Source: a virus
Length of the DNA stretch: 58,578 nucleotides
IMG/VR virus record: IMGVR_UViG_3300026521_000072
Span: 1 to 58,578 of that record
Direction: 5' to 3' (one strand)
The notes under the pieces are model-generated. The model saw only the letters and a program-made list of their open reading frames with translations, was not told where the DNA came from and made no database searches. How positions within the stretch are numbered: the stretch's first letter is position 1; every line of letters starts with the position of its first letter. Below, piece by piece: positions 3,087-43,522 of the stretch. The position numbers and the translations under genes are program-made.

Positions 3087-3644
3087 ATGAAAGTATACAA
3101 TTACACATACATTGAAGACAAAGAGTATTTTAAAATATTAGTAACTAGGTTAGATGATACTTCCTACTTAAAAGAAATTCTAGTAGATAATTCTATTAAA
3201 GAATTAGTTAAAGAAAGAAATATCAGGATAGTAAAGTCAGGGTACGCTGTATTAAGAGGTAAAGGATGTTTCTTTTTACATCACTTAGTACTAGGGCATA
3301 CAAGTAATATGTCCACAGTAGTGGATCATATAAACGGTAATAGACTTGACAATCGAAAATCTAATTTGCGAGTACTACCACAAGCAGATAATGCTAACAA
3401 CAGAACTAAAAATTCTCGATGTAATACAGGAGTTGTAGGGATAGCTAAAAGAAGTAAAGGTAATTATAATTACTTCAGAGCTACCGTCAGTGATAGGGTT
3501 ACTATTGTAGAAAATAGTAAAGCTAAGTCACAAACAAAAAGATATTCTAGACAATTCAATATTAATAAACTCGGTGAAGACGAAGCTATGAAACAAGCAA
3601 AAGCTTGGTTAAAGCAGAAACGTACTGAGTTTGGTTATGTGTAA
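3087..3644 (+). CDS. Intron-encoded HNH homing endonuclease, 185 aa
   Basis: HNH endonuclease with the pattern VDHINGNRLDNRKSNLR, where the His and the spaced Asn residues form the beta-beta-alpha metal site. The following RTKNSRCNTGVVGI segment leads into an AP2-like DNA-binding domain, a common pairing in phage HNH proteins. It lies in the P6 extension of the group I intron and would cut an intronless MoxR allele, starting intron homing. The start ATG has a good ribosome binding site (AAAGGAGA). Confidence 0.88.
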   Translation: MKVYNYTYIEDKEYFKILVTRLDDTSYLKEILVDNSIKELVKERNIRIVKSGYAVLRGKGCFFLHHLVLGHTSNMSTVVDHINGNRLDNRKSNLRVLPQADNANNRTKNSRCNTGVVGIAKRSKGNYNYFRATVSDRVTIVENSKAKSQTKRYSRQFNINKLGEDEAMKQAKAWLKQKRTEFGYV

Positions 3645-3776
3645 AGAGATTATTAAACCGGACCCGTTCAACGACTAGTCGAAAGACGTAGAGTTCAAGT
3701 GAACTCGAAATGGGAGAAATCTTGATTTATTTATAAAATTCTGATATACTGTTAAAAATTCACAAGGAAATTAAGT

Positions 3777-5476: not shown

Positions 5477-5665
5477 ATGAAACCAATAGTATTTACTGAG
5501 CAAATTATTGATTGTAGTCTAATTGATAAACAACATATGTACGGTTCTCGTCGTCTTGGAGTACATACATCACAATCAGATTATGATTTGTTTTTCCATA
5601 GTAGCGAAATTGCTACTATTGGTTTAGATATTTTTCAATTAAAAAAAAAAAAGAAAAAAAGTTAA
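5477..5665 (+). CDS. Nucleotidyltransferase-like protein, 5' part before an A12 tract
   Basis: The peptide contains MYGSRRLGVHTSQSDYDLF, the GS-x-SDYD signature of the nucleotidyltransferase superfamily, and then runs into a lysine tract encoded by A12-G-A7 (5641-5660) and stops. The fold continues in another frame from 5659 onwards (KLINNSNYLSSKPLYG...). A -1 shift within the A-run would give a 178-aa protein ending at 6012, close to what a minimal phage nucleotidyltransferase needs. Slippage during transcription or translation, or a miscounted homopolymer in the assembly, would all explain it. Confidence 0.7.
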   Translation: MKPIVFTEQIIDCSLIDKQHMYGSRRLGVHTSQSDYDLFFHSSEIATIGLDIFQLKKKKKKS

Positions 5666-6012
5666 TAAATAACAGTAATTATCTTTCAAGTAAACCTTTA
5701 TACGGTACAGTTAAATTAATAAAAAACATGAAAACAGTAAATAAATATAGAACAGCTGATATACTTATATTTTCTGATAAACGTGATATTGAAATAATGA
5801 ATAAAGCATTAAATTATCTTGAAAATGGCGCAACACTATTGTATGATAAAAGTTTACGTATTAATGTGTATAATTATGCATTACAACATTTTGGTTTTTT
5901 ACCGATAAATGATAAAACATACCTTATGTATACTAAAAAAGTATTTGACTTAATAGGTACTATAAAAAAATCTAATGATATACATATTAATAGTAATTTT
6001 GAAGTAATATAG
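5659..6012 (+). CDS. Nucleotidyltransferase-like protein, 3' part (shifted -1)
   Basis: Open from about 5659 in the -1 frame relative to the 5' part, with no stop until 6012. The first ATG is at 5728, but 23 codons upstream of it read as ordinary protein (NNSNYLSSKPLYGTVKLI), so the segment looks like the continuation of the nucleotidyltransferase and not an independent gene. No ribosome binding site is seen before 5728, which supports that view. Confidence 0.6.
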   Translation, partial: KLINNSNYLSSKPLYGTVKLIKNMKTVNKYRTADILIFSDKRDIEIMNKALNYLENGATLLYDKSLRINVYNYALQHFGFLPINDKTYLMYTKKVFDLIGTIKKSNDIHINSNFEVI

Positions 6013-21481: not shown

Positions 21482-21841
21482 ATGATATACCCAGTAAATT
21501 CATTTGATTTAGAAGTACACTTTAAAGATGAACCTTCTAATACATTTAAATTTCCTTGTTTAGTAAGAGGTATGCGTAGTCGTATTAGTCGTAAAAGACC
21601 TATTAGCTACACTTTACATTTATCAACACCTACTAGATTAGATTTTGATAACTTAGCTAAGAATTTAGATACTATGCAATATTCTTTAGACATAACTAAT
21701 CGTAAACCTATAACTATAGAAATAAATGGAACTTATATTAATTGTATAGATACAGATAAGTGCTTCTTTGCCATCAAATTATCACCTTATTACTATAATG
21801 GTGTACTATATAAAAATTTAAAGGGTATAGATGAAAACTAA
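21482..21841 (+). CDS. Hypothetical protein, 119 aa
   Basis: Unrecognised beta-rich protein with a basic block RGMRSRISRKRP. Overlaps the next gene by 11 nt. Confidence 0.55.
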   Translation: MIYPVNSFDLEVHFKDEPSNTFKFPCLVRGMRSRISRKRPISYTLHLSTPTRLDFDNLAKNLDTMQYSLDITNRKPITIEINGTYINCIDTDKCFFAIKLSPYYYNGVLYKNLKGIDEN

Positions 21842-22109
21842 CTTTACTGCATATCGTAAATACAAACTTACTGATGACTTATCTATTAGATATTTCTATC
21901 AATTTGAAACTAAACCTGAGTATACAGATAAGTGGGTAATTAAGAGCCATGAACGCAAAGAATACTCTATCATATCCCAATATACTGCTGAACTTATTTT
22001 AGAGTCTCATGGACTTAGTATGCACGATTATAAGCATATAGCAGGGTTAGTTGATAGTTGTGGTATATATTCTAAATATACATTAGCATCTATACCTATT
22101 GAGTTGTAA
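21831..22109 (+). CDS. Hypothetical protein, 92 aa
   Basis: Unrecognised small protein, no motif. Its stop codon (22107-22109) lies within the first helix of the structured RNA element starting at 22106, so termination of translation and RNA folding may interact. Confidence 0.55.
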   Translation: MKTNFTAYRKYKLTDDLSIRYFYQFETKPEYTDKWVIKSHERKEYSIISQYTAELILESHGLSMHDYKHIAGLVDSCGIYSKYTLASIPIEL

Positions 22110-22321
22110 CGCTCACTCTGGTAAGCCATACACACAATACTATTCAGTATTCAAGAACCTGTCAACCTTCACTACATTCAGGTCAGACGTCGGTAACTCT
22201 TTTTACTTCACTGCGTTTCGTAAAAACAGCTTTGCCGGGTCTGCCTTTCAGGTGACAGAACCTTTCATACTTCATACGTGTATGTGATGGCTACCATCCT
22301 TTCGCAGACGAGTGAGCTTAC
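22106..22321 (+). ncRNA. Candidate structured RNA A, rod-like, about 216 nt
   Basis: Six or more nested helices can be read on the plus strand: GTAA/TTAC (22106/22318), GCTCACTC/GAGTGAGC (22111/22310), GGTAaGCC+ATACAC with GTGTAT+GGCTACC (22120/22278), CTGTCaACC/GGTGACAG (22159/22251), AGGtCAGAC/GTCTGCCT (22180/22239), CGG/CCG (22191/22235) and CTcTTTTTAC/GTAAAAAcAG (22197/22220). All are in proper nested order. The G+C is visibly higher than in neighbouring genes, and frames here are short. No known RNA family is recognised. Confidence 0.7.
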
Positions 22322-22404
22322 GTACTTGTATTTATTATATTCTTATATAGATGATTTTTTAATTTTAGCCACAAACATCGATAATAAGGGGTTTAAGGTG
22401 AGTT

Positions 22405-22455
22405 TTATTACATTCGTGTTACAACACCTTTACATTCATGGGACGAATGTAATAA
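22405..22455 (+). promoter_or_regulatory. 13-bp perfect hairpin in the leader of the RepL-like gene
   Basis: TTATTACATTCGT (22405-22417) and ACGAATGTAATAA (22443-22455) are exact complements with a 25-nt loop, ending 17 nt before the ATG at 22473. A competing helix AAGGTG (22395) with CACCTT (22425) is possible, which would suit a leader switch. No U-run follows, so it is not an intrinsic terminator. Confidence 0.5.
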
Positions 22456-22472
22456 CTATAAAGGTATTGTAA

Positions 22473-22904
22473 ATGGAAATTGTTACTAAACAACGTATTA
22501 TATCAGAAAAAATCTTAAACAAAGATACAGGGCAGTTAGAAGATATAATATTTACTGAACAACATAAATCAAAGAAAATAAGAGGTGGGTTCAATCTTAT
22601 GTATCACAAATCCTATGAAGAAGTAACAGAACAAGTAATAAAATCTAATAAAGATGTGAGATTGTTTAATTGGATAACTAATCAATTTACCTATGCACGT
22701 ATAGAAGTACCCTTGGTATATTCACAATGTGATATAGAAGTATCACAGCCTCAATTTTCTAGGATGATTAAACAGCTATTAGAGTTAAACTATATTAAAC
22801 GAATATCACGTGGTATATATCGTCTCAATCCGTTTGTGTATGTACCATTTCGTGCCAATGCTGAGGAATTGCAACACGAATGGGACGAACTATCTAAACA
22901 ATAA
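22473..22904 (+). CDS. RepL-like winged-helix replication/regulatory protein, 143 aa
   Basis: The region GGFNLMYHKSYEEV...FNWITNQF and then VSQPQFSRMIKQLLELNYIK resembles the winged helix of RepL-type plasmid initiators and related phage proteins, ending in RISRGIYRLNPFVYVP, a typical wing and NP motif. It is flanked on both sides by strongly structured noncoding segments, which could be its binding targets or its own leader and trailer. Confidence 0.6.
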   Translation: MEIVTKQRIISEKILNKDTGQLEDIIFTEQHKSKKIRGGFNLMYHKSYEEVTEQVIKSNKDVRLFNWITNQFTYARIEVPLVYSQCDIEVSQPQFSRMIKQLLELNYIKRISRGIYRLNPFVYVPFRANAEELQHEWDELSKQ

Positions 22905-22923
22905 TCGCATCTACTACTTATGT

Positions 22924-23027
22924 ATAAGCACGTGCGGGTGACAAGCTACACAATCTGACGAGGTGCGACATAGGAGCACATGTCTGAGTCAGTTGTGTAG
23001 TGTAGGCACATAGCTACGTGCGTTTAT
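22924..23027 (+). ncRNA. Candidate structured RNA B, about 104 nt
   Basis: Nested helices: ATAA/TTAT (22924/23024), GCACGT/ACGTGC (22928/23016), CTACACAA/TTGTGTAG (22946/22993), CTGAC/GTCAG (22955/22988) and GACAT/ATGTC (22967/22980) with an 8-nt apical loop. The interval 22905-23082 has no gene. The lack of a tRNA T-arm and anticodon arm excludes a tRNA. Role unknown. Confidence 0.6.
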
Positions 23028-23124
23028 CAGCATAGCTGTATTGTTAGCCTAGCGCAGCTTTGAGAATCTACAAAGGATTATAATGAAATACGATATAGAT
23101 ATAAAATATCAGAAAAACTAGGAT

Positions 23125-23337
23125 ATGCAGCGTGCAATACCAATATTACAAGTTATTATTATAAAAATAAATAATTTACATATACCTATAGATACTTCAA
23201 ATAAGTATATGTTAGAATTACCTAATTCTCTGTATGTCAGTAGAATAGATACTAAAGAGTATATAATACATACAATTAAAAATGAACATGCAACATTATT
23301 AGATAAACTAATTTTTATAGCTAAAGCAGCACAATAA
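23125..23337 (+). CDS. Hypothetical protein, 70 aa
   Basis: Small protein whose C-terminus LLDKLIFIAKAAQ is nearly the same as LDKLLFLAKAQA at the end of the protein encoded at 24465, so the two may be paralogs flanking the RecA-like gene. Ribosome binding site is poor (CTAGGAT directly before ATG); a 12-codon ORF at 23083 with a better site ends 5 nt upstream and may couple translation. Confidence 0.45.
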   Translation: MQRAIPILQVIIIKINNLHIPIDTSNKYMLELPNSLYVSRIDTKEYIIHTIKNEHATLLDKLIFIAKAAQ

Positions 23338-23345
23338 CAATAAAG

Positions 23346-23466
23346 CTATAAGTCATATGTAGCTGTATCAGAATAATTTTCACATATACTACCCCCTTCT
23401 AAAGACATATTTGAACTATTTATTCTACAAATTTCAATTTCTGATACAGCGACCTATGGCTTATAG
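23346..23466 (+). ncRNA. Candidate structured RNA C: long hairpin with C-rich loop
   Basis: Two 28-nt arms, 23346-23373 and 23439-23466, pair almost throughout: CTATAAG/CTTATAG at the base, CATA/TATG in the middle and GCTGTATCAGAA/TTCTGATACAGC (12 perfect pairs) at the top. The 65-nt loop contains ACCCCCTTCT, which is 6 of 7 complementary to the AAGGAGG ribosome binding site at 23482-23488. No U-run follows. The interval carries no ORF of note. Confidence 0.6.
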
Positions 23467-23492
23467 TCATATAAACAATACAAGGAGGCAAT

Positions 23493-23717
23493 ACGCCAAC
23501 ATGGAAAAATAGATATGTAAATATCGAGCAACAAGTAGGAGACGGTTATTGGGCTAAACGTAAAACAAAATACAGATGGAAACTTGTAAAAGCAGACAGA
23601 TGTCCAAATAGACCGTTAAAACACGATGTAGTTCAAGCAATCGGACCACAATCTGAAAAACGCAGAAAACTACTAGAAAAAAGGATGATCAATGCCCAAC
23701 AAAAAAGAAGCAGTTAA
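23493..23717 (+). CDS. Small basic protein, 74 aa, apparent ACG start
   Basis: An open frame encodes a convincing basic peptide (TWKNRYVNIEQQVGDGYWAK...). It is preceded by AAGGAGG (23482-23488), one of the strongest ribosome binding sites in the window, but the only codon at the right distance is ACG 23493; no ATG, GTG or TTG lies between the upstream stop and TGG 23502. The ATG at 23501 is out of frame and reaches a stop after three codons. The end overlaps the RecA-like gene by 26 nt. Rare start use or a start-codon mutation are both possible. Confidence 0.45.
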   Translation, partial: TPTWKNRYVNIEQQVGDGYWAKRKTKYRWKLVKADRCPNRPLKHDVVQAIGPQSEKRRKLLEKRMINAQQKRSS

Positions 23718-29591: not shown

Positions 29592-30056
29592 ATGAAATTT
29601 AAAAAATTTAAACAAAAAGTAAGAGAGTTAGAGAAGTCTTTACCAGAAAACATAACAAACAAATTATCTACTGAAACTCTTAAAGAAGTACCAAAAGATT
29701 ATAGAGTACTCTATATTGTTTCGCTTAAAAAAGTAATAAGTGAACTATCTTTAGAACATAGTGTAACAGAAGATAAATCAGAAACAGATAGAATTTTAGC
29801 TGAACGTGGTGCTAACTACGGTAAGTTTACTAACCATGCTAAGTTATCGCAAACGTTAAAAACAGCATTTGATAATCATGTACGTGAGTACGGACAACCA
29901 GAACTATTTACAAACACGATGAATGAAGCCATTGAGATGGTATTTCATAAATTAGCTCGTATCGCAAATGGAAATCCTACATATAAAGATAACTATGTTG
30001 ACATTATTGGTTATACACAACTAGTTTTAGATGAACTTAACGGTATAGAACGTTAG
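29592..30056 (+). CDS. DUF6378-like phage protein, 154 aa
   Basis: The C-terminal part has ILAERGANYGKFTNHAKLSQ and KLARIANGNPTYKDNYVDII, the conserved frame of the DUF6378 phage family of unknown function. The N-terminal 65 residues are a helical, basic extension. Lies in the same operon as nrdB and the MazG-like gene, so a link to nucleotide metabolism is possible. Confidence 0.6.
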   Translation: MKFKKFKQKVRELEKSLPENITNKLSTETLKEVPKDYRVLYIVSLKKVISELSLEHSVTEDKSETDRILAERGANYGKFTNHAKLSQTLKTAFDNHVREYGQPELFTNTMNEAIEMVFHKLARIANGNPTYKDNYVDIIGYTQLVLDELNGIER

Positions 30057-31239: not shown

Positions 31240-34200
31240 TTAGTACCCATCTATCAAGTGTGTAATCGGTACATCAGCTGCACCACTTATCAAACTTTCA
31301 GTATTATCTAACCAACTAAACGGATTTAATCTCTTACCCCATCTAAATATAATTGAACTATCTAACACATCATTAGGGATATCTAAGTATTTTTTACCTA
31401 AGCTATCCATCACTACTTTAGTAGTATTAGTTTTTAATAGTTTTAGATTAACTCTTTGTATATTAGCAAAATATTTCCAGAACGCTTCTGGCCCCATCTT
31501 ATCTAACCATTGAACTACTTTACTATTTATTACTTTACTGTAGTTTATAAAATTATCAGTAACTTCTCTTAAAGCTTTTTCCTTACTTACTCCATTTTCT
31601 ATAGCATTCCAATAAATAGCAGCTCTAAAGTGGAAATCACTTTCTTGTGTTACATGCAACAATAGCTGTCCTAATGCACTTTTCCTAGTTAAAAACGCAG
31701 TATTTACTACTTCTTTTATAGTCTTATTGTTACCAATTACGCTATCTTCTAACTTCTTTTCTACCCAATTTACAATTTTATTACTATCTTCTTCTAAATT
31801 TATATCTTCAACAATTGTCTGATACAACCCTTCTTCTAATAAAGGTATTAATGGATTATCTTTTATTTCAGCAGCTAAATCAGCTAGTTTTTTACGCACT
31901 TTATCTCGTTCAGCACCTTCAAGCATATCTACTTTACGTTCTAAGTTTCTACGTTTTTTCTCATCTTCTTTCCACTTATCTAAGTTTCGTTTACTTATCA
32001 ATAAATACTTAACTGCTTTATTTATAGGCATACCACTAAACCACAGAAATTTAGCATTACTCACTATATTACCTATTATAGTTCTAGGTAATTTTATAAC
32101 TACCATACTTTTAGCAATAGCTATAATATCTGCAAAGCCTTGTTCAATTAGTCTAACTTTATGTTGAATACTCAGAGGCAGTCTTTTTATAAGCGAAGAG
32201 TTACTAACCATTGCCTGGTTATACCCAAACAATTGTTTCATTAAATCTTTACGTATATATATTTCTCTACGCTCTTTAGGGTTTTTCACACCTTTAGCTA
32301 GATCTTCTTTTTTATTCATCTCAACTATATATGCTCTAGTTTTAGGAGGTAGCAAACCCCATAACTCCTCTCCTTCTGTTTTAGGCATAAATCGTGCAAC
32401 ATCAGCTTCTCCTACTTTACCTTTTAACTCTGCAGTCGTAAGCCTATTTTCAGTAGCATACACTCTTATAAATTCATTATCTAATAACTCTTTAGCTAAA
32501 TTTTCATCTTTGATACTTTTTAAAGTTTCTTTAGTATCTCGTATTATAATATCAATTAACTCCTCATTATTCGTGTCAGTATACACTTGTGTATCTTTTT
32601 GCCCAAAGCTTCTAGCTAATAAGTCTGTACCTCTTTTTTCTAAATCTATATGGGTCTCCATCTCAGATAGAGTAGGCTCATACCTAAAGTCAATTACCCT
32701 CCCATACTCATTATATATAGGGTACATATTATTATAGTTACTATGCTTAGCTGCATGTCTAATTGCTTCACGAATTTTATTGTTTATGCGTTCATTAGAT
32801 AAATGCTCGTTCTCTACTCTTACTTTTTCACTTAATGTCAAACCCTTAATAGTTAATCTTTGCAAACCTATTGCACCATCAACTCTTTTAGTTAACCCCA
32901 CATTGTCATTTACGTACAAACCATACAGCATTTTACCAGTATCTCCACTATCCTTTCTCATAGTACGAATTAGTCTATAACCTAGATTTTCCATTTTATT
33001 ACTAGTAGCTTTATCAAATGGAGCAAATATTAACTCTTTACTATAGTCGGTATTCTCCTTCATTTGTCCTTTAACCATTTCCTGTAACTTACCATTAAGC
33101 TCCCAATCACTTTTAGTAGCTACTTGTACACCTTTACTGTTTACTAAATAGTTTGTAACACCTTCTACATCTAAGTCTATTAGCTCTACCATACGCTCTT
33201 TATACTCAGAGTCTATGTCCTTTAAAGCGTATAATGTAATCAGTCTATCAATCATATTTTCAATCTTAACTACGTTATACTCTGCAACTAACTCTCCTCC
33301 GTCTGGAAACGCTAGGACACTACCAAAGTTTCTAGCGATATTATGAGCATTGCTGCGTAATCCTTTTTTAGTAAGCATGTACTTAGCTACACTTTTAGCA
33401 TTACGTACCATAGCATTACCCAGTACGTAGTTGCCATGTTTAATAGATTTTATACTTTTTTCTAATTTATTTATTTCTTTATCTAGTATATTACTATCTG
33501 TTAAGTATTTTCTTAACACTTTAGCATCGGTACTAACGGCTTGAAAGTCTGTACGCATAATAACTCTGTTTAAAGCGTGGTTGTATTTTAAGTTTTTATT
33601 AGCGTACATGTCTATGTTCTTAAACCCTGTTTGAATATCTCTTAAAGCTCCTTTGAAATGCATATCTCTCATACGGTCTAAATGACTTTTGAATTTCATA
33701 GTTATATCTGTTATCTGTACTAAAGTTTTTCTACCTGCCGTAAAATCCGCTATTAAGTCTTTTAAGAACTCATAGTACTTACCATACATTTTTTTAAGTA
33801 GATAATCTAATTGAATTCTGATTTTTAAGTACTCATCACTGTTATAGTCACCTATAATTGTATAGAGTCTAGTTATAGCTGGAAACATTTTAGCAATATG
33901 CCATGTCTTACCTAGCACACCACTATTACGAGCAAGTTCTGCTTCTTTATTTATGTACGTTAACAGTTTATGGACTCTAGTTAGCTCTGCTTCTTTATAC
34001 TTATGTTTATCTGTTTTATTATCTATAACACTAAAACGCTCTAGTACATTATCCACAACCTCTTTTACCGCTTTATCTACTTCTTTAGATACTTTATCTA
34101 AACCTTCATTAAACTTTTCGTCAATAACTATACCGATGTGTTCTTTAGCTTTATTGCCGTATTTGTTATTAACTTCTCCAAGTGCTATACTTAACCTTAG

Positions 34201-35418
34201 TAGCTCAGTCTCTATGTCTTTACCACGATTTCTCATGTGCGTTAAATCAAACACTAATTTATTCAATTTGTTTAATAGACCATAGAAAGTTTTACTGAGC
34301 CAAGAAGCACTGTCAGGTACTTTTATTTTTCTGTATTCTAATGGGGTGTTTTGCAGAGCTTTTTTTACATGCTTGTTAGTTAAACCATAAACTATAAATT
34401 CTTGTAAACGTCTATCAGCATCTTTATTTGTAAAATCATCTAACTTTCCGGTAAATATGTAATCATACATACTTTTTGCTTTAGCGGTTTCTTCTTTAGT
34501 GTAAGGGCCTTCTCCTTCAGGTAGCAAATCTTTGTAAGTCATTCTACTTTTAGCTACTGTATAAAGTCTTCGTAAATCATCCTTTACATCTTGCCCCAGC
34601 ACACCAAGCGATTTATGAAACAGTACATCTAAGTATGCATGTGTAATTTCATGTACTAACGCTTCCTCGTTACCCATTAGAAATCTATTATTCGCTTTTT
34701 CTGCTAGGTCACTTGGAAGTATACGTACCTTACTCCCTTTTACATTCGGATTGAAGGATGCTGCAGGCTCTGATAGTACATTAAGCATACTCTTGCTTAC
34801 ATCTATTTTTAAGGCACCAATCTCTTTAACTAGTCTATACATTCTCTTTGTAAGTTTTCGTAGATGTTCTGTATGCTCAGTATCCTGTACTACATTAGGA
34901 GCTTTCTCGTCTATACTTACCATCTCAGCATGTATTTGTTTTAAGTTACCACTCATAACGTTTTCACTGCTACCAAACATCTTGTTCATAGCATCTTCGT
35001 CCATATCAACGTTAAATAATGTATCTAAGTCGTCTTCGTGTCTAGGAGAGTTTTTAATAGCATTTTCTATTACATCAGACTGTACGTTACCTACAACTCT
35101 ACTACCAACTTCTTTAAAGTGTAAATCGATGTCACCATCAACAGTGTAAAATGTTATATTCCCTTTAGCATCAATATTGACTCTATCTATAAGTGTGGAT
35201 TGTCTATCAGAATTACCATTTTCATAGTATTCTACACTACCACTACCTAAACGCATGTCTATATTGATAGCTCTGTTGTGTAGTACAATAGCTTCTCTTC
35301 CTAGAGCATCAAGTTCTTTATCTGAGGTTTGTGGGTATTCCTTTCTAAGATTCTGCTTAACTTCTTTTAAATCTTCATTTGTAAGCATTAAACCCCTAGC
35401 ATATGCAGTACATTTCAT
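31240..35418 (-). CDS. Virion RNA polymerase, C-terminal part, 1392 aa (N4 gp50-like)
   Basis: Third part of a virion RNA polymerase that is one 3,500-aa chain in N4. The protein starts MKCTAYARG, and by eye Cys3 is its only cysteine. A zincin-type motif VHEITH (H256-H260) with E340 in QEFIVYGLTN forms a gluzincin-like metallopeptidase site, as in the polyvalent proteins injected by phages. The remainder is mostly helical and charged. The start lies 2 nt after the stop of the catalytic part (TAA-CA-ATG) with AAAGGA as ribosome binding site. In N4 the C-terminal domain is needed to package the polymerase in the head; I infer the same here. Confidence 0.8.
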   Translation of the reverse strand: MKCTAYARGLMLTNEDLKEVKQNLRKEYPQTSDKELDALGREAIVLHNRAINIDMRLGSGSVEYYENGNSDRQSTLIDRVNIDAKGNITFYTVDGDIDLHFKEVGSRVVGNVQSDVIENAIKNSPRHEDDLDTLFNVDMDEDAMNKMFGSSENVMSGNLKQIHAEMVSIDEKAPNVVQDTEHTEHLRKLTKRMYRLVKEIGALKIDVSKSMLNVLSEPAASFNPNVKGSKVRILPSDLAEKANNRFLMGNEEALVHEITHAYLDVLFHKSLGVLGQDVKDDLRRLYTVAKSRMTYKDLLPEGEGPYTKEETAKAKSMYDYIFTGKLDDFTNKDADRRLQEFIVYGLTNKHVKKALQNTPLEYRKIKVPDSASWLSKTFYGLLNKLNKLVFDLTHMRNRGKDIETELLRLSIALGEVNNKYGNKAKEHIGIVIDEKFNEGLDKVSKEVDKAVKEVVDNVLERFSVIDNKTDKHKYKEAELTRVHKLLTYINKEAELARNSGVLGKTWHIAKMFPAITRLYTIIGDYNSDEYLKIRIQLDYLLKKMYGKYYEFLKDLIADFTAGRKTLVQITDITMKFKSHLDRMRDMHFKGALRDIQTGFKNIDMYANKNLKYNHALNRVIMRTDFQAVSTDAKVLRKYLTDSNILDKEINKLEKSIKSIKHGNYVLGNAMVRNAKSVAKYMLTKKGLRSNAHNIARNFGSVLAFPDGGELVAEYNVVKIENMIDRLITLYALKDIDSEYKERMVELIDLDVEGVTNYLVNSKGVQVATKSDWELNGKLQEMVKGQMKENTDYSKELIFAPFDKATSNKMENLGYRLIRTMRKDSGDTGKMLYGLYVNDNVGLTKRVDGAIGLQRLTIKGLTLSEKVRVENEHLSNERINNKIREAIRHAAKHSNYNNMYPIYNEYGRVIDFRYEPTLSEMETHIDLEKRGTDLLARSFGQKDTQVYTDTNNEELIDIIIRDTKETLKSIKDENLAKELLDNEFIRVYATENRLTTAELKGKVGEADVARFMPKTEGEELWGLLPPKTRAYIVEMNKKEDLAKGVKNPKERREIYIRKDLMKQLFGYNQAMVSNSSLIKRLPLSIQHKVRLIEQGFADIIAIAKSMVVIKLPRTIIGNIVSNAKFLWFSGMPINKAVKYLLISKRNLDKWKEDEKKRRNLERKVDMLEGAERDKVRKKLADLAAEIKDNPLIPLLEEGLYQTIVEDINLEEDSNKIVNWVEKKLEDSVIGNNKTIKEVVNTAFLTRKSALGQLLLHVTQESDFHFRAAIYWNAIENGVSKEKALREVTDNFINYSKVINSKVVQWLDKMGPEAFWKYFANIQRVNLKLLKTNTTKVVMDSLGKKYLDIPNDVLDSSIIFRWGKRLNPFSWLDNTESLISGAADVPITHLIDGY

Positions 35419-35420
35419 TG

Positions 35421-38400
35421 TTATCCTTTACACTTTGTGTTGCTGTTATCTATAACAGTCTTTGTTGCTATTATACCTGTTTCTAGCATAGAATCATCTG
35501 AATTGCTAGAACTATTCTCTACTCGTCTAATCATTATAATCTGGTCTCCAGTATTGCTTATCACTTCAAACCCATATTTACTGTACCAACTTATTAGTTT
35601 CTCTTCATTGGTAGTATCGTCCATAGGAAGCACCTCTAACAGTATATCTTCATTACCGTACTCATTAATTACACGTCCCATGACAGCATCAGCATAACCT
35701 AATCCTCTCTCATTTGAATGTATCATGTTAAGTGTGCGGTATACCTTAGTCTTATCTACATCGTCACCTAAGTAATCATTCCAGTTCAGCATACCGTTTA
35801 TCTTAGCCTTACCTAAGCTAGCATAAGCAACAACTTTATCGTTTTTATACAACTCCACACGTTTTACATTTCTATTTTTATTATTTGGGTCAACAACTAA
35901 CTCTCGTTCTTTTATTTGAGTTTCTAGTGCATCTTCTACTATACTATCTACAGCCTTCACTACGTAGCGAGTATCTACACTCCACAGTTTACCTAACACT
36001 TTCTTTATAGTATTCAGCACGTTGTTTACACTTATGGACTCATTTTGTGGGAACTGTTTAATAAACGCTCTACGTACACTAGGTTCACTACTTAGTACAG
36101 CTACTAACTCAGCTACCTGAGTAAACTCATCCTTTCTACTAAGCACATAGTCTAGTCTTTGACGAAGGATGTTACCCTCTATATCATGTCCAGGGTCAAA
36201 GTCTTTTAAACTCTCTAAACTTTTAGCTAAATACTTATATTGTTTTCTGTGTTTACCGTCTTGTAACCATTTATATGTAATTGCATGTTTAATCTCATGT
36301 GCTACATAAACAGCTCTATCTTTCGGATTAGCTTCTGCTACTATAGTTATGCTATTATTCTCTGGGTCGTACATAAACTCTTCACCAAATTTGATTTTAA
36401 TGCCATATTTCTGTATATACTGGTCATTTAGCTTATCAATCTGCTTAGCTTCTTCATTACTAATCAGCACTTCTGGTAGATAATCATCAGCAGCTTTTAA
36501 ATTTTGCGTGATTTTAAGTTTAGTATTGTCGAGTTTTCTAGTTATACTTTGTATTACATTTTCACTGGTAGTTTTTGTTTCGTATTTAGTAGGTTCGTAC
36601 TCATACTTAGCACTTACTTTATTGCCGTTCTTATCTAGCGTTTCAGCATAGGCATGTTCTACGTACAGTGTCTTGCTAAACAACTTCTCTCTATTAGTTT
36701 CAGATAGTTTTTCAATCCTACTCAGATCAGTTATATATTTCTTAATTTGGTCTGCATACTTTAACTTGCTGCCTGGTTTGCTATACTCCTCATTCAACTC
36801 TTTTAGTATATCTTCTAGCACACCATCTTCTAGCCTACTGTTAGTAAACGTCTTAACCACTGATTGCATAATTTCATGTACTAAGTGATAGTCTTTATTT
36901 AAGTTAATCCAGTGTTTGTTATAGTCTTTAGTACCTTCTATAAACTCATCTATAGAGAAATAGTTAGCATCATGCACTCCGAGTGCTACTCTACTTTTTA
37001 GTACTTCAGCTTGCACACTACCATCAAAGAAGTGTATAGGTACAACTGCACCTGAACTGTATGCCTCAACTAACTTATACAACTCTATGGCACCATGTGT
37101 AAGCCTATTACCGCTACTTTTAGTTCTTAAGCCTGGGCTAGCAATATTACCAAGCAACTCAACGTCACCCTCTTTAGTAGACACCCTCTGACGTTTAGCT
37201 ATTAGAAGTTTAGAAGTTATACCGTCATCAGTCTTAAGCACAGAGTTGAGTACTGGTAGCACATAGGACATTTCCTGTACCAAGGCTTGCATTTCTTTTT
37301 TATTTATAGGAGGTACTAGTCGTGAAGCGCGCTTATACTCAGGGCTATCTTCTTTAACAGCATCATCTACTAATTTTAGCACTTTAGTTTTATGTAGTTC
37401 TTTTATTCTCCTGTCTAGTAATTTTCTAGCAATCCTAAACTGTACTGTAAATAGCTCATTTGTAGTTCTAGTTAGTTCTATGAAGGGTTTATACTTCTTT
37501 GTTAGTACTACTTTTAAAGCGTTACCGAATGTAGGCTGTCCTTCTAATTCTTCATCTGCAGCATATACATAACCGATTAGTGTTGTACGCTCATCAGGGC
37601 TCAGTTGAAACTTACGTAAAGCTTCTAAATTTTTCGGCAAATCTCGCTTCTTGTCAGACTGTAGTACATGCAGAATTTTATTTATTCTATTATACTCATC
37701 ACCCAATTCTCGCTCTATTTCGTAGTCAGGATCTTTCGGGTTGTAGTCAGGACTAGAGTAGTAATTTTTAGCTTTTATGTAGTAGGTATTTATCATGTTA
37801 TATAAATTATCTACCGTTAAGTTAGCTGTAGATTGTATGATTGAATTAATGGCACTACCGTAGTTGAGTACCATAAACGGGTTTTTCATAAAATTACGAC
37901 TAAATCCTCTATCTTCATCATACTTAGGGTCTATAAGTTTTAACACCTCTAAAGGTACATCATAGCTATTTTTACGCAATTCTTTTGTTAGTTCTTTGGC
38001 AGGGTCCTCATAAGAATCTAACGCATCTGTATCATCATTTCTAGCACCATAACTTTTAGAAGCCTCTGTAAACACTCCCATTTTCTCTAGTTCTTTTATT
38101 TGAGCATCTATATTGGAGCCGAATAGGATTGGGATTTGCATGTTTTTAATTGCATACCCAGACGTAATAGCGTCTGTCTCTATACTAGATTCAGTGTAGT
38201 AACTCTCTGCAGTACCTCTACCAGTATAATTCCAGTTTAATAGCTCACTGATACCACTCAATAGATGTTCTGGCTCTCCTAAATTGTATTTACCTTCTTT
38301 AGCTACTTCTAGTAGTATTTTTGCATGCTCTGCATAAGTTTCACTATTTTGGTACTCTTCTAATGTAGCGTATTGTGTAGCTTCGTCTATATCATAACTA

Positions 38401-39914
38401 CTTGATAATTTATCTATAATAATATCTATTTCATTGTTATTAGCTACTAATAGTTTTTCTGCTGTTTGTTTATCTACGCTGACACCGAACGATTGTCCAA
38501 GCATAAGTTTAAATCCGTTTTCGTTACTTTTAGTGACTTCAACTTTTCTATTATACACTGCATACCGGTGTAGTTTCTTATCTTGCCAATTTAGTTTGTT
38601 ACTATCTATCATAAATCTATTATTAGTAATTACTTTCCATCTTGCATACATATCTTTATCTAAACCAAATTCATCGTAAGCTTCTTGTAAGTAGTTGATA
38701 GAATCAGCCAGCATATTGTTCTTACCACGTACAGCTTCTAGCTTAACATCTAACACATCTTCTTCATTTTTATAGCCTAACAATTCTAGTAGTACACCAT
38801 CCTTATGAAGCTTTTGCACAAGCTTGTTAAACCCATTCTTCATACGATACGGCGTACTGCTTTGTTTTATTACAGCATCTTTGTGAGCAGAACTGACTAC
38901 ATCCCCTAACTCACCACTCGGACCTTCATTAACTATTTCACTTCGTTTAGGTACTGCATCACTTTTAGTTGTAAATACTCCATATTTAGTCGGTTCGCCT
39001 ACAACACTGTCATACAATTTTCCTGCACTATCTTTTACAGTCTTGCTACTAACTAGTACTTCTACCCCACCTGCAATGACATACAACGACATATCACCGT
39101 TACGTCCTACTTTGCGTTTATTGTTAAAACTAACTACTTTTATGCCTTTCCTAGTATCATCTATATCAGTCTTTTTTACTGTAAGCATACCAACATTTTC
39201 TAGACCAGCTAAACTAAGCATACCAAGTTCAGCTTTCAATTTAGCTTCTAGTACATGATTGTTGATAAGGTTTGTATCACTGTCAGCTTTAATACCTAGC
39301 AACTTATACGCTTTACTACCTATGGTATTTATACTTCTATTATATAACGTATCAAATCCGTTCAACTTTTCGTACATTTCTGTAGTAATAGTGTCTTTTT
39401 TATCTATTCCTAGTATAGCTCGAACTGTATCAGGATGTCGATGCTCTGCTAAGTCAGATTCAGCATCATTGACTAGCCAATCAGTAGTAGCTATACTTAC
39501 AGCTTTAGCAACTTCATCATTTAGTGTGTAGTGTGTAATCTTACCATACTCATTTTTATGTGCTTTATACAGCAGTCCAATAATACTTTGCCAACCTTCA
39601 GTTATATTATTATTGCCTGTGTACATAGGGTCAATGAGAAAATTATCATAAGTATCTGCTTGAACAACACCTTCTTTAGTTACATAGTTTTCTATCACAT
39701 TTTTTAATGTAAGTGCTATAGTGTCTTGAATTTGAGTTTCTACTAGCTTAGTGGTAGCTTTAGGGTTCGCTTTAAAGTATGTACTAAGTGTTGCATTCAG
39801 TGCTGTGTGATTTCTTATATCGTGTATAACCTTACCAACACCATTTTCATTTTTCAGTTTATATAGTGCTGGTAATACTTTTGATACATCTTTTAACGCT
39901 TCAGTACATTTCAT
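35421..39914 (-). CDS. Virion RNA polymerase, catalytic part, 1497 aa (N4 gp50-like)
   Basis: Single-subunit T7-like RNA polymerase of the N4 virion type. The T/DxxGR-like motif is ITNNRFM near 430; motif A is TDAITSG with D581; motif B is RNFMKNPFMVLNYGS (R673 to Y685); motif C is HFFDGS with D964, matching the unusual FDG of N4. After the polymerase come a zincin motif AHEIKH at 1205-1210 with E1269, and a GNAT-like domain at about 1350-1465 (RGLGYADAVMG, WYSKYGFEVI). Only two cysteines are seen, C3 and C1495. The ATG overlaps the upstream stop as TAATG. It should be injected with the DNA and transcribe early genes. Confidence 0.9.
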   Translation of the reverse strand: MKCTEALKDVSKVLPALYKLKNENGVGKVIHDIRNHTALNATLSTYFKANPKATTKLVETQIQDTIALTLKNVIENYVTKEGVVQADTYDNFLIDPMYTGNNNITEGWQSIIGLLYKAHKNEYGKITHYTLNDEVAKAVSIATTDWLVNDAESDLAEHRHPDTVRAILGIDKKDTITTEMYEKLNGFDTLYNRSINTIGSKAYKLLGIKADSDTNLINNHVLEAKLKAELGMLSLAGLENVGMLTVKKTDIDDTRKGIKVVSFNNKRKVGRNGDMSLYVIAGGVEVLVSSKTVKDSAGKLYDSVVGEPTKYGVFTTKSDAVPKRSEIVNEGPSGELGDVVSSAHKDAVIKQSSTPYRMKNGFNKLVQKLHKDGVLLELLGYKNEEDVLDVKLEAVRGKNNMLADSINYLQEAYDEFGLDKDMYARWKVITNNRFMIDSNKLNWQDKKLHRYAVYNRKVEVTKSNENGFKLMLGQSFGVSVDKQTAEKLLVANNNEIDIIIDKLSSSYDIDEATQYATLEEYQNSETYAEHAKILLEVAKEGKYNLGEPEHLLSGISELLNWNYTGRGTAESYYTESSIETDAITSGYAIKNMQIPILFGSNIDAQIKELEKMGVFTEASKSYGARNDDTDALDSYEDPAKELTKELRKNSYDVPLEVLKLIDPKYDEDRGFSRNFMKNPFMVLNYGSAINSIIQSTANLTVDNLYNMINTYYIKAKNYYSSPDYNPKDPDYEIERELGDEYNRINKILHVLQSDKKRDLPKNLEALRKFQLSPDERTTLIGYVYAADEELEGQPTFGNALKVVLTKKYKPFIELTRTTNELFTVQFRIARKLLDRRIKELHKTKVLKLVDDAVKEDSPEYKRASRLVPPINKKEMQALVQEMSYVLPVLNSVLKTDDGITSKLLIAKRQRVSTKEGDVELLGNIASPGLRTKSSGNRLTHGAIELYKLVEAYSSGAVVPIHFFDGSVQAEVLKSRVALGVHDANYFSIDEFIEGTKDYNKHWINLNKDYHLVHEIMQSVVKTFTNSRLEDGVLEDILKELNEEYSKPGSKLKYADQIKKYITDLSRIEKLSETNREKLFSKTLYVEHAYAETLDKNGNKVSAKYEYEPTKYETKTTSENVIQSITRKLDNTKLKITQNLKAADDYLPEVLISNEEAKQIDKLNDQYIQKYGIKIKFGEEFMYDPENNSITIVAEANPKDRAVYVAHEIKHAITYKWLQDGKHRKQYKYLAKSLESLKDFDPGHDIEGNILRQRLDYVLSRKDEFTQVAELVAVLSSEPSVRRAFIKQFPQNESISVNNVLNTIKKVLGKLWSVDTRYVVKAVDSIVEDALETQIKERELVVDPNNKNRNVKRVELYKNDKVVAYASLGKAKINGMLNWNDYLGDDVDKTKVYRTLNMIHSNERGLGYADAVMGRVINEYGNEDILLEVLPMDDTTNEEKLISWYSKYGFEVISNTGDQIIMIRRVENSSSNSDDSMLETGIIATKTVIDNSNTKCKG

Positions 39915-42900
39915 TATTTACATCCTATTATTTTTTTCAATTTACTAATTATTCTTACATCTAGAGTTTTTAGGCTAGCGGCTATTAAATCTTGTATAAT
40001 TTGCTCATTGCTAATTTCTAAAACTTTTTCTGCTGTTATTGTAGCAGTACTACCCTTAGTTTTACTTAACATCTCCTGTAAGTATTCTAGTTTTTTTGCA
40101 GTAGTTTTTACTTTAGAGAGCCCATTATCTAAGTCATGTACACCTGCTTCTGTAAGTTCTCTATATAACTCATCTATCTTATTCTGGTTATCTAACTCTT
40201 CAATATCTTCGCTACTCATATCTTTATAGCTAGACGTATCAGGCTCGGTAATTGGTTTTTCTGCTTCAGTATTATGTGTAGATTTTTCTATAACATCTTC
40301 AGCAGATTTGTTTTCTATCGGCTCTACGTCACTACTCTTACCACTATCAGGATATTTTAGGTTGTTTATTGATACTGTACCATTTCCAGCTTTTGCTATG
40401 TATTTAGTACCTTTTAGTACTTTATTTACCCTATGCGTTAACCTACTCTTACCGCTCCTAGTAGTAAATTCTGGGTATAACTCTACATATCTATTTAGCA
40501 CCTTATCAACAGCTGCTAAGTATTTAACTACGGCTGTTTGATTACTACCATAACTGTTAATATCCTCATACAATTTTTGTACGTTCTCTGCTAGTAAGTT
40601 TACTTCTTCGAGGAGTTCTGCTTCTTCTCTAGTATACTTTGTAGTTTCTCTCCCTGACTCTTTAACCTTAGTAGTTCTGCTTTTATCGCTTTTAGTTCTT
40701 TCAGTCTGTTCATTTTTTTCTTCTCCTTGTTGTTTTTCATCTACAGTAAACTCTGACTGTGTATCAGTACTACTATCTAGTTTGATATTACCGGCACCAT
40801 CAAACTTATTATTAGTTACTATATCGTATACCTTTTGAAATAGTTCTACTTCTTTTTCTATCTGTTCTATTCCCACATTGGACTGTGGTCCGTGATATTT
40901 ATATACAGCAGGACTACCATCAGAATACTGCCCGTATTGTGCTTCTATAGTACCATCACCTTTTTTCCACTTATTGGCTAGCACTCTTGCAGCTTCAAGC
41001 TTCTGCTCTTGTGTTCTCATAAAGTTTTCTAGCCTACTTTGTAGTGCTTCTTTATTTTTGTAATTTGGGTCTAGCAGAGCCTGTACATACTGATATAAAC
41101 CCATTCTATACTTGCCATAAGTGTCGAAGCCCCCGTACACTTTCATTGTTTGTGTGTCTTTATTTATAGCTTTTTTACCTACATCTAGTGCTACCCCTCT
41201 TTCATCAGCTAGAGGTACCACACCACTTTCAGCTATTAGTTTTTCTACTTGCAGTGCTTTCTTTTTATCAAGCATTTCAGCGGTAGGTTCAGTAGTAGAG
41301 GATAGTTCTTTATCCACCTCAGCTAGTTCTTTTTCTATCTCTTTTATTGGTCTGTTATTATATACAGCACTACTACTATTACGGAATGGTTCTAAATCAT
41401 TAGCTATCGCGCCTATTGTGTTAACTAAATCTGCCTTTAACACTTCTAATTTCGACAATCCCTCTGCTGTCTGCTTTTGCATACTTGCTAGCTCTTCAGC
41501 AGTATAAGGAGTACCATCCTCTTTTATAACAACTTCACCAGTTAGTAGTTTTTCTTCATTATCTTTTAACTGCCTCTCAGCTGCTAGTACTTTTTGCAAC
41601 TCGGCTTCATGTGTCTTAAGATTTCTCTCATATACATCTTTAACTAGAGCTTCATCGTGTCTACTAAGTACACCTTCCTCTCCATTAGTGATTGCTTGTA
41701 CATGCTTGCTAATGTCATTATCAGATAACTTTGAAGCATAAATAGAATCTTTAACTTCATCAGGCATTTCATCTAAATGTTTTTTAATTTCGCTAACATC
41801 TAGTGTGTCAATTTCTTGTAGATTTTTGTATGCGTTATCTATGTCTGCAGCAGAGGTATCAGTTGTGCCAGCATCACTACTACTATCACTTACAACTTTC
41901 GCTTTAACATTACCTATAGCTTCTTTAACTGTATCGTTCTCTTTAGCTGCAGTTTTTATAGTGTTAGCGACAGTTCCAGTTCCTTTAGCACCTGTACCCA
42001 TAACAGCACCGAGGAATGCGCTAAACTTATTTGTATCAGACGTTGCTATGTCTTTTATATTTTTAGTGTTTTCATTTTGTGTAGCCCAGTCTTGACTTAC
42101 CCCTTCTAGATACTCTTGTAAACCTTCCTCTCCACCAGACTTTAGAATGCTTATAGCCTTATTTACAACTCTTTTAGTTGGCTTGAATACTTCTTTAGCA
42201 CCACTCTTAACTACAAACTTTTCTAAATTCAGAACAGCTAGTTGTTCAAGGAATGTCTCAGCTAACTTACTCTTACTCATTCCTTTATTGTTATTCTCTC
42301 TATACTGGTCGTTATATTCTTTAGTTCTGATAGCTGCTAGCCCTAATGTACCTCCTGGTAACATAATAGCTGCCATCTCTCCTGACGATTGTGCAAATAC
42401 TTCTGGAAGCATTTTAAGAGATGTTATTAAAGCTTTTGTGTAGTTACCTTCTTTGAATGCTTTTTCTGCTGTAACCATCTTATCATTATAGTCTTTAATA
42501 GTCTCATCTTTAACCCCAGCATACTTCATAGCAGTGTTTAGGTCTTGTAATTCTTTACTTTTATCGGCAGTACCAAATAAACCTCTATCGGTATCTACGA
42601 CTTTGTCATAACCTTCAACTATATCTCCTAGTACTGTACCTTTAATACTATCTTTTACTGCATTAGTACCTCTAGCCCATATATTGTACAGAGAACCTTG
42701 CACCTCATCTACTAACTCTCCTACATACCCGTCTTTATCACTAGTTTGCATTTCTTTATCGAAATCATCTAGTATAGAACTAACTGTGTTACTTTCTTCT
42801 TCTATATAAGTATTGCCAGGTCTTAGTGCTTGTTCCGCTGTTAAGTCGTGCTTACCGCTAATATCACGCAGAAATTGTACTCTTCTGTTATGGCTACTTA

Positions 42901-43522
42901 TATCTGTGTCAGCTACTTGAACTGGAATGTTTAACGGATTTTGCGAATCACCTAGCATAAGCGGATTGTTAACTACATCGTACTCAATAGGCCCTGGAGT
43001 CCATTCAGTACCGTCAGGGTTTTTAGGTCTACCCATAGCAGTATACAAAGCGTCAAGTTTATCTAACTCACCTCTTGTATAAACTACTTTTTCTTTATCC
43101 GCAAATGGTAAGTCTTCACTTACCCCTATTTGCCTAGCTTGTCTGTTTATACGTTCTTTGTGGTGTGTATCTCCTGCCCATGGAGTACCATCAGTGTTAA
43201 GGTGTGCTACTTCTCTAGAGTCTACCCATCCTGCAGGCCCTTCTATATTAGGAGCTCCGGCTAGTCTAGAATCAGCAGTTTCTCCTTGTATACGGAACGA
43301 ATCACCGTCTATAACTGACTGCAGTTGTGCTTTTCTGAACTGCACATTACTACTTAGCACGTCATTAGCTATCTGTTCACCTAAATTATTGTTGCCGTTT
43401 AATCTTTGTAGTTTTTCTTGTGTTTTGTTTTGTAGGTTCTGTATTTTAGTAGTTGTTGGTGCTGTTGTGCTATTTATCGCATCAGCAACACCGAGGTCAC
43501 CAGCTAAGTCTAAATCAGTCAT
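39914..43522 (-). CDS. Virion RNA polymerase, N-terminal part, 1202 aa (N4 gp50-like)
   Basis: Corresponds to the N-terminal domain of N4 vRNAP: the block GGEEGLQEYLEGVSQDWAT, then TSDTNKFSAFLGAVMGTGA, parallels N4 sequence VEEGVQGATGQLAQ...GVGTQAGLGALYGFG as I recall it. Residues 70-135 (VIDGDSFRI, SRLAGAPNIEGP) resemble the first strands of a thermonuclease (SNase) domain. Hydrophobic segments near 370-400 could insert into membrane, consistent with a role in the ejection channel. Its single cysteine is the penultimate residue (IIGCK). A TGTTATAAT box lies 31 nt upstream. Confidence 0.82.
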   Translation of the reverse strand: MTDLDLAGDLGVADAINSTTAPTTTKIQNLQNKTQEKLQRLNGNNNLGEQIANDVLSSNVQFRKAQLQSVIDGDSFRIQGETADSRLAGAPNIEGPAGWVDSREVAHLNTDGTPWAGDTHHKERINRQARQIGVSEDLPFADKEKVVYTRGELDKLDALYTAMGRPKNPDGTEWTPGPIEYDVVNNPLMLGDSQNPLNIPVQVADTDISSHNRRVQFLRDISGKHDLTAEQALRPGNTYIEEESNTVSSILDDFDKEMQTSDKDGYVGELVDEVQGSLYNIWARGTNAVKDSIKGTVLGDIVEGYDKVVDTDRGLFGTADKSKELQDLNTAMKYAGVKDETIKDYNDKMVTAEKAFKEGNYTKALITSLKMLPEVFAQSSGEMAAIMLPGGTLGLAAIRTKEYNDQYRENNNKGMSKSKLAETFLEQLAVLNLEKFVVKSGAKEVFKPTKRVVNKAISILKSGGEEGLQEYLEGVSQDWATQNENTKNIKDIATSDTNKFSAFLGAVMGTGAKGTGTVANTIKTAAKENDTVKEAIGNVKAKVVSDSSSDAGTTDTSAADIDNAYKNLQEIDTLDVSEIKKHLDEMPDEVKDSIYASKLSDNDISKHVQAITNGEEGVLSRHDEALVKDVYERNLKTHEAELQKVLAAERQLKDNEEKLLTGEVVIKEDGTPYTAEELASMQKQTAEGLSKLEVLKADLVNTIGAIANDLEPFRNSSSAVYNNRPIKEIEKELAEVDKELSSTTEPTAEMLDKKKALQVEKLIAESGVVPLADERGVALDVGKKAINKDTQTMKVYGGFDTYGKYRMGLYQYVQALLDPNYKNKEALQSRLENFMRTQEQKLEAARVLANKWKKGDGTIEAQYGQYSDGSPAVYKYHGPQSNVGIEQIEKEVELFQKVYDIVTNNKFDGAGNIKLDSSTDTQSEFTVDEKQQGEEKNEQTERTKSDKSRTTKVKESGRETTKYTREEAELLEEVNLLAENVQKLYEDINSYGSNQTAVVKYLAAVDKVLNRYVELYPEFTTRSGKSRLTHRVNKVLKGTKYIAKAGNGTVSINNLKYPDSGKSSDVEPIENKSAEDVIEKSTHNTEAEKPITEPDTSSYKDMSSEDIEELDNQNKIDELYRELTEAGVHDLDNGLSKVKTTAKKLEYLQEMLSKTKGSTATITAEKVLEISNEQIIQDLIAASLKTLDVRIISKLKKIIGCK

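Follow-up and report, generated by a model that had tools for sequence, protein, structure and literature searches.

To our knowledge, few structured noncoding RNAs have been described in lytic N4-like phages. 6S RNA binds the sigma70 polymerase, and N4-like phages need this polymerase late. For N4 itself, both early/middle and late transcription have been described, and the late genes are transcribed with leftward polarity by the host sigma70 polymerase (PMC4496689). In staphylococcal phages a structured phage RNA, cabRNA, is transcribed from terminase genes (PMC10686824). Here we analysed a 58.6-kb virus record from IMG/VR, an uncultured phage contig that is referred to, at its full length, as the window.

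Judged by its sequence, the contig is an N4-like phage related to Alteromonas phages. The nearest DNA polymerases are those of Alteromonas phages R22Y, PT11-V19 and AD45 (~40% identity), the portal protein is up to 62% identical to that of AD45, and some of the AD45 genes are annotated as N4-like. The layout is N4-like as well, because replication genes run rightward and structural genes leftward, the same as in N4 (PMC4496689); between the left end and 30.8 kb, the larger genes are on the plus strand. ARAGORN found neither tRNA nor tmRNA in the whole window. The region 31240-43522 contains three leftward ORFs of very large size (1392, 1497 and 1202 aa), at a position roughly matching that of the large RNA polymerase gene of PT11-V19. 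A giant virion polymerase may be divided across these ORFs; the counterpart region of AD45 is annotated with a potential frameshift. The relatives used for comparison included L002 (IMGVR_UViG_3300003873_000055), found via the polymerase, and L007, L008, L009 and L012, found via SSB.

A strongly structured noncoding element

The intergenic region between orf92 and a RepL-like gene contains a real, strongly structured noncoding element, a 216-nt rod-like inverted repeat (22106..22321). At the coordinates given in the preliminary description, it folds along one axis into a single self-contained rod, with 74 bp on the plus strand and 78 bp on the minus strand. Minimum free energies are −69.2 kcal/mol (plus) and −82.5 kcal/mol (minus), corresponding to z-scores of −6.37 and −6.80 in 1000 dinucleotide shuffles per strand. 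The rod energy is far outside the shuffled range, with 0 of 1000 shuffles folding as well on either strand, in agreement with the earlier claim that such complementarity would hardly arise by chance. For comparison, the mean z was −0.32 (sd 0.88, minimum −2.55) over 120 randomly placed windows of equal length. In a G+C-corrected scan of the whole window the rod was the top outlier on both strands, although on the plus strand it was almost level by this measure with two coding stretches, whose shuffle z-scores are only −4.0 and −4.5. The other high-scoring stretches, at 30041 and 29016, are coding and weaker, and were set aside.

The plus strand forms 16 nested helices (4, 8, 5, 5, 4, 4, 3, 5, 3, 6, 3, 3, 5, 7, 2 and 7 bp), where at least six in correct order had been claimed, with a mean pair probability of 0.94, and all 74 pairs remain internal to the rod upon refolding with ~600 or 1074 nt of context. 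The two long helices expected at the base are both present, but their extent had to be refined to 4 and 8 bp with one bulged C between them. They are followed on the 3′ side of the plus strand by a 13-nt one-sided bulge (22297-22309). The upstream gene, orf92 (21831-22109), ends where the rod starts, and its stop codon TAA (22107-22109) is indeed inside the first helix. The raised G+C content noted earlier is likewise apparent (0.435 compared with ~0.30 around the rod). The minus strand folds no worse than the plus strand, and wobble pairs (three on plus, six on minus) do not clearly mark either strand.

The sole ORF inside the rod is a 62-aa frame with a TTG start, matching neither Pfam nor PHROG families, so that the description of the rod as having no good ORF stands. 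Its assignment to an unknown family also holds: Rfam 15 returned nothing at the gathering threshold for the window, and permissive thresholds gave only chance-level matches for the rod (best E = 0.58). Phages, plasmids and 11 related records yielded no alignable copy, their BLAST matches being at chance level, and there was no second copy in the rod's own genome record, making it single-copy.

Promoter-like sites and a possible leftward RNA

Just outside the rod, the minus strand carries a sigma70-like promoter (22334..22362, TTAAAA-17-TATAAT, 10 of 12 consensus matches) pointing into it. The predicted start, at about 22325-22328, is a few nucleotides outside the basal helix. Such a promoter occurs in 2.8% of shuffles of the right flank, the strand and edge having been picked after looking. 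In L002, a hairpin upstream of RepL (3633-3746; z −3.8 on plus, −5.7 on minus) likewise has a sigma70-like promoter at its right edge (TTGACT-17-TATAAT, 11 of 12 matches), located on the minus strand and aimed into the hairpin; in a test made after seeing the sites, 0.3% of the shuffles of this flank contained one. The arrangement of promoter and hairpin upstream of RepL is similar in the window and L002.

Because promoters point into hairpins in both genomes, we consider a small RNA, transcribed leftward and divergently from the RepL-like gene, to be the most likely single reading of the rod, with a probability of roughly 0.35. The rod would then be a noncoding element maintained for its structure, and the region a minus-strand small-RNA gene, at which the host sigma70 polymerase would initiate at about 22327. 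The product would be an RNA of ~220 nt running in the same direction as the phage late genes. Its long imperfect duplex might provide stability and a protein- or RNA-binding surface, and the RNA could regulate expression or replication late in infection. Transcription from the 22334..22362 promoter, the ends of the RNA and any function are what we infer here. The extreme fold statistics and self-contained structure are consistent with such an RNA, as are the lower energy and slightly better z-score of the minus strand, the similar strand preference of the L002 hairpin, the 17-nt promoter spacing and position, and the leftward sigma70-driven late transcription of N4 (PMC4496689). Also in its favour, similar sites are found just upstream of some minus-strand late genes in the window (e.g. 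45652 and 51029).

Several observations argue against the leftward RNA. Neither strand has an intrinsic terminator after the rod. The promoter is a consensus match of a kind common in this A+T-rich genome, with 30 such sites on the minus strand of the window and no promoter excess in the wider rod region. The wobble pairs leave no clear minus-strand mark. In addition, the L002 hairpin cannot be aligned with the rod, and it also falls in the leader of a homing-endonuclease-like gene on the minus strand.

Rightward transcription and intergenic hairpins

A cis-acting role is nearly as likely as the leftward RNA, because a rightward message must cross the rod. According to this tentative explanation, the rod would be a duplex in a rightward polycistronic message, either cut by RNase III or blocking exonucleases, and would separate upstream from downstream messages in a manner similar to the intergenic processing sites of T7. 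With the larger plus-strand genes extending to 30.8 kb, rightward transcription would traverse the rod unless it stops first, and the coincidence of the rod start with the orf92 stop codon also favours such a role. Also in line with such a role is another hairpin, 1 kb downstream (23345..23467, plus strand; 29-nt arms, 65-nt loop, z −6.5); six phages retain it, with arms that have been exchanged but still pair.

This separate hairpin and its five structural counterparts all lie between the exonuclease and Sak4-like genes, the counterparts within noncoding stretches of L002 (11400-11472), L007 (4983-5050), L008 (5984-6051), L009 (6855-6923) and L012 (5816-5939). The arms of the six hairpins, compared by hand, are 19-29 nt long and differ in sequence but retain complementarity. 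Their loops are C-rich (ACCTCCTA in four, ATCTCCTA in L009 and ACCCCCTT in the window) and resemble an anti-Shine-Dalgarno sequence; in L002 the 3′ arm takes in AAAGG ahead of the next gene. Read on the plus strand, the six hairpins have nine G-U pairs versus two A-C mismatches, a count inflated by shared ancestry. These comparisons, which are not evidence about the rod itself, suggest that the clade keeps intergenic hairpins and, since the 23345-23467 hairpin is kept in six phages with wobbles favouring the plus strand, plus-strand hairpins seem to be maintained. As an RNA candidate this hairpin may be stronger than the rod, and its retention in six phages suggests several structured elements in the replication module of this phage group. 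The wobble argument, however, comes from a different hairpin with non-independent counts and is not transferable to the rod, whose 216 nt far exceed the length of known RNase III sites.

Nearby in the window, a frame following AAGGAGG (23493-23699) has a match, at 35% over 69 aa, to a small gene that relatives carry. It would begin with ACG; no in-frame ATG, GTG or TTG was seen near the ribosome-binding-like site.

The relatives also contain two conserved noncoding blocks. The first, GTCCTGCTCATGGGACGTTAAAGAACATCCGG..., follows the SSB gene and is 83-87% identical in five phages (L002 14377-14600, L007 7063-7280, L008 7924-8235, L009 9870-10095 and L011 1644-2040); it has no Rfam match. The second, GACTACATGCCATAGTCTATATGAAGGTGG..., follows the exonuclease gene and is 77-84% identical (L002 11227-11390, L009 6598-6760 and L012 5557-5835), with a tRNA-Lys gene (5627-5700) inside it in L012. 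The structured regions conserved downstream of the exonuclease and SSB genes in relatives were considered as counterparts of the rod and rejected, as they did not match it. In L009 (3927-6176) the exonuclease gene is split by ~1.5 kb, setting residues 1-147 and 149-264 apart, probably by an intron or a homing insertion.

The RepL-like cassette and known systems

The gene downstream of the rod (22473..22904, plus strand) encodes a RepL-like winged-helix protein of 143 aa, which scores below the Pfam RepL cut-off (E = 0.003; 17.4 bits against 20.3). L002, the sole IMG/VR relative with a RepL-like gene, encodes a homologue that is 23% identical and exceeds the cut-off (27.3 bits), and the RepL proteins of PT11-V19 and R22Y reach 92-93 bits. 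All of these proteins have NxxTG...GxYxxxP...W in common. PT11-V19 and R22Y, both N4-like, each carry two copies of RepL-type plasmid initiator genes, which in PT11-V19 are close to a phage RNA polymerase gene.

Rightward of the rod come an A+T-rich spacer, a conserved 26-nt element, an inverted repeat and the RepL-like gene. The 26-nt element AATAAGGGGTTTAAGGTGAGTTTTAT (22383..22408, plus strand; blastn E = 0.002 against L002) precedes the RepL start by 88-90 nt, a distance that the window and L002 have in common. Zero chance occurrences are expected in the window, its core is absent from all other viral contigs scanned, and it is possibly a phage promoter. The inverted repeat TTATTACATTCGT...ACGAATGTAATAA in the RepL leader (22406..22456, plus strand; fold z −2.1) is putatively operator-like; small hairpins are found near the equivalent place in L002 (3950-3985) and R22Y (501-566; z −4.6). 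After RepL there is a second, weaker stem-loop (22928..23023; z −2.7 on plus, −3.4 on minus, and −1.65 in a 216-nt window). Farther on, the AGCCTAGCGCAGCTTT motif (23046..23061) is shared with L002 (3835-3850). It was considered as an N4 virion-polymerase hairpin promoter, an idea dropped because the stem has no more than 3 bp and there is no set of matching sites.

In the window the cassette is located between the exonuclease and Sak4-like genes, and in L002 it is upstream of the polymerase gene, beside homing-endonuclease-like genes. Given these different positions, the RepL cassette looks like a mobile module, as judged from two genomes. No cassette beyond L002 emerged from scans of viral contigs, for which the polymerase, the RepL alignment and the exact RepL protein served as queries, or from a polymerase scan of genome contigs. 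Genes at 21482-23337 other than RepL have no match in relatives.

These surroundings bear on an unlikely alternative, in which the rod would act as DNA, a double-stranded or extruded palindrome in the origin or copy-control region of a RepL replicon that is recognized by the RepL-like initiator. The rod does neighbour a RepL-type gene, hairpins and repeats also precede RepL genes on plasmids, the cassette occupies differing positions in two phages as a mobile replicon module would, and both strands of the rod fold about equally. On the other hand, a better candidate for binding the initiator is the smaller inverted repeat immediately ahead of RepL, and it is to this leader repeat, not to the rod, that the counterparts in other phages belong; the rod showed no iterons, and GC skew does not switch at 22 kb in the manner of an origin. 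Somewhat more doubtful is that the rod is a now functionless relic of an inserted MITE-like inverted-repeat element or an inverted duplication, as might be suggested by its imperfect terminal inverted repeats (GTAAcGCTCACTC/GAGTGAGCTTAC) and its position among the unmatched genes of 21482-23337, but the rod is single-copy in the genome and relatives, no target duplication was seen and the helices are ordered along its entire length.

Returning to the preferred leftward RNA, a far-reaching and improbable form of RNA interpretation would be a rod-shaped noncoding phage RNA of a new class, belonging to a mobile RepL-type cassette of N4-like phages, transcribed divergently and late, and controlling replication or the host RNA polymerase, with a sequence that turns over fast while the rod is kept. 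A strong, unassigned rod beside a plasmid-type initiator gene is a concrete and small experimental target.

Among known systems, the RNase III hairpins of the T7 early region are similar to the rod in being imperfect duplexes located between the genes of a rightward phage message, but these sites are far shorter. 6S RNA (RF00013) resembles it in being a rod of ~200 nt that is closed by a long stem and has interrupted helices, but the rod has no Rfam match at any threshold used. RepL plasmid replicons (PF05732) share a RepL-type gene with hairpins upstream; they differ in that the leaders examined have shorter repeats and no 216-nt rod, and the RepL-like protein of the window is below the Pfam cut-off. 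Finally, cabRNA is a structured phage RNA, as the rod may be, but it is transcribed from terminase genes (PMC10686824), whereas the rod is intergenic and replication-linked.
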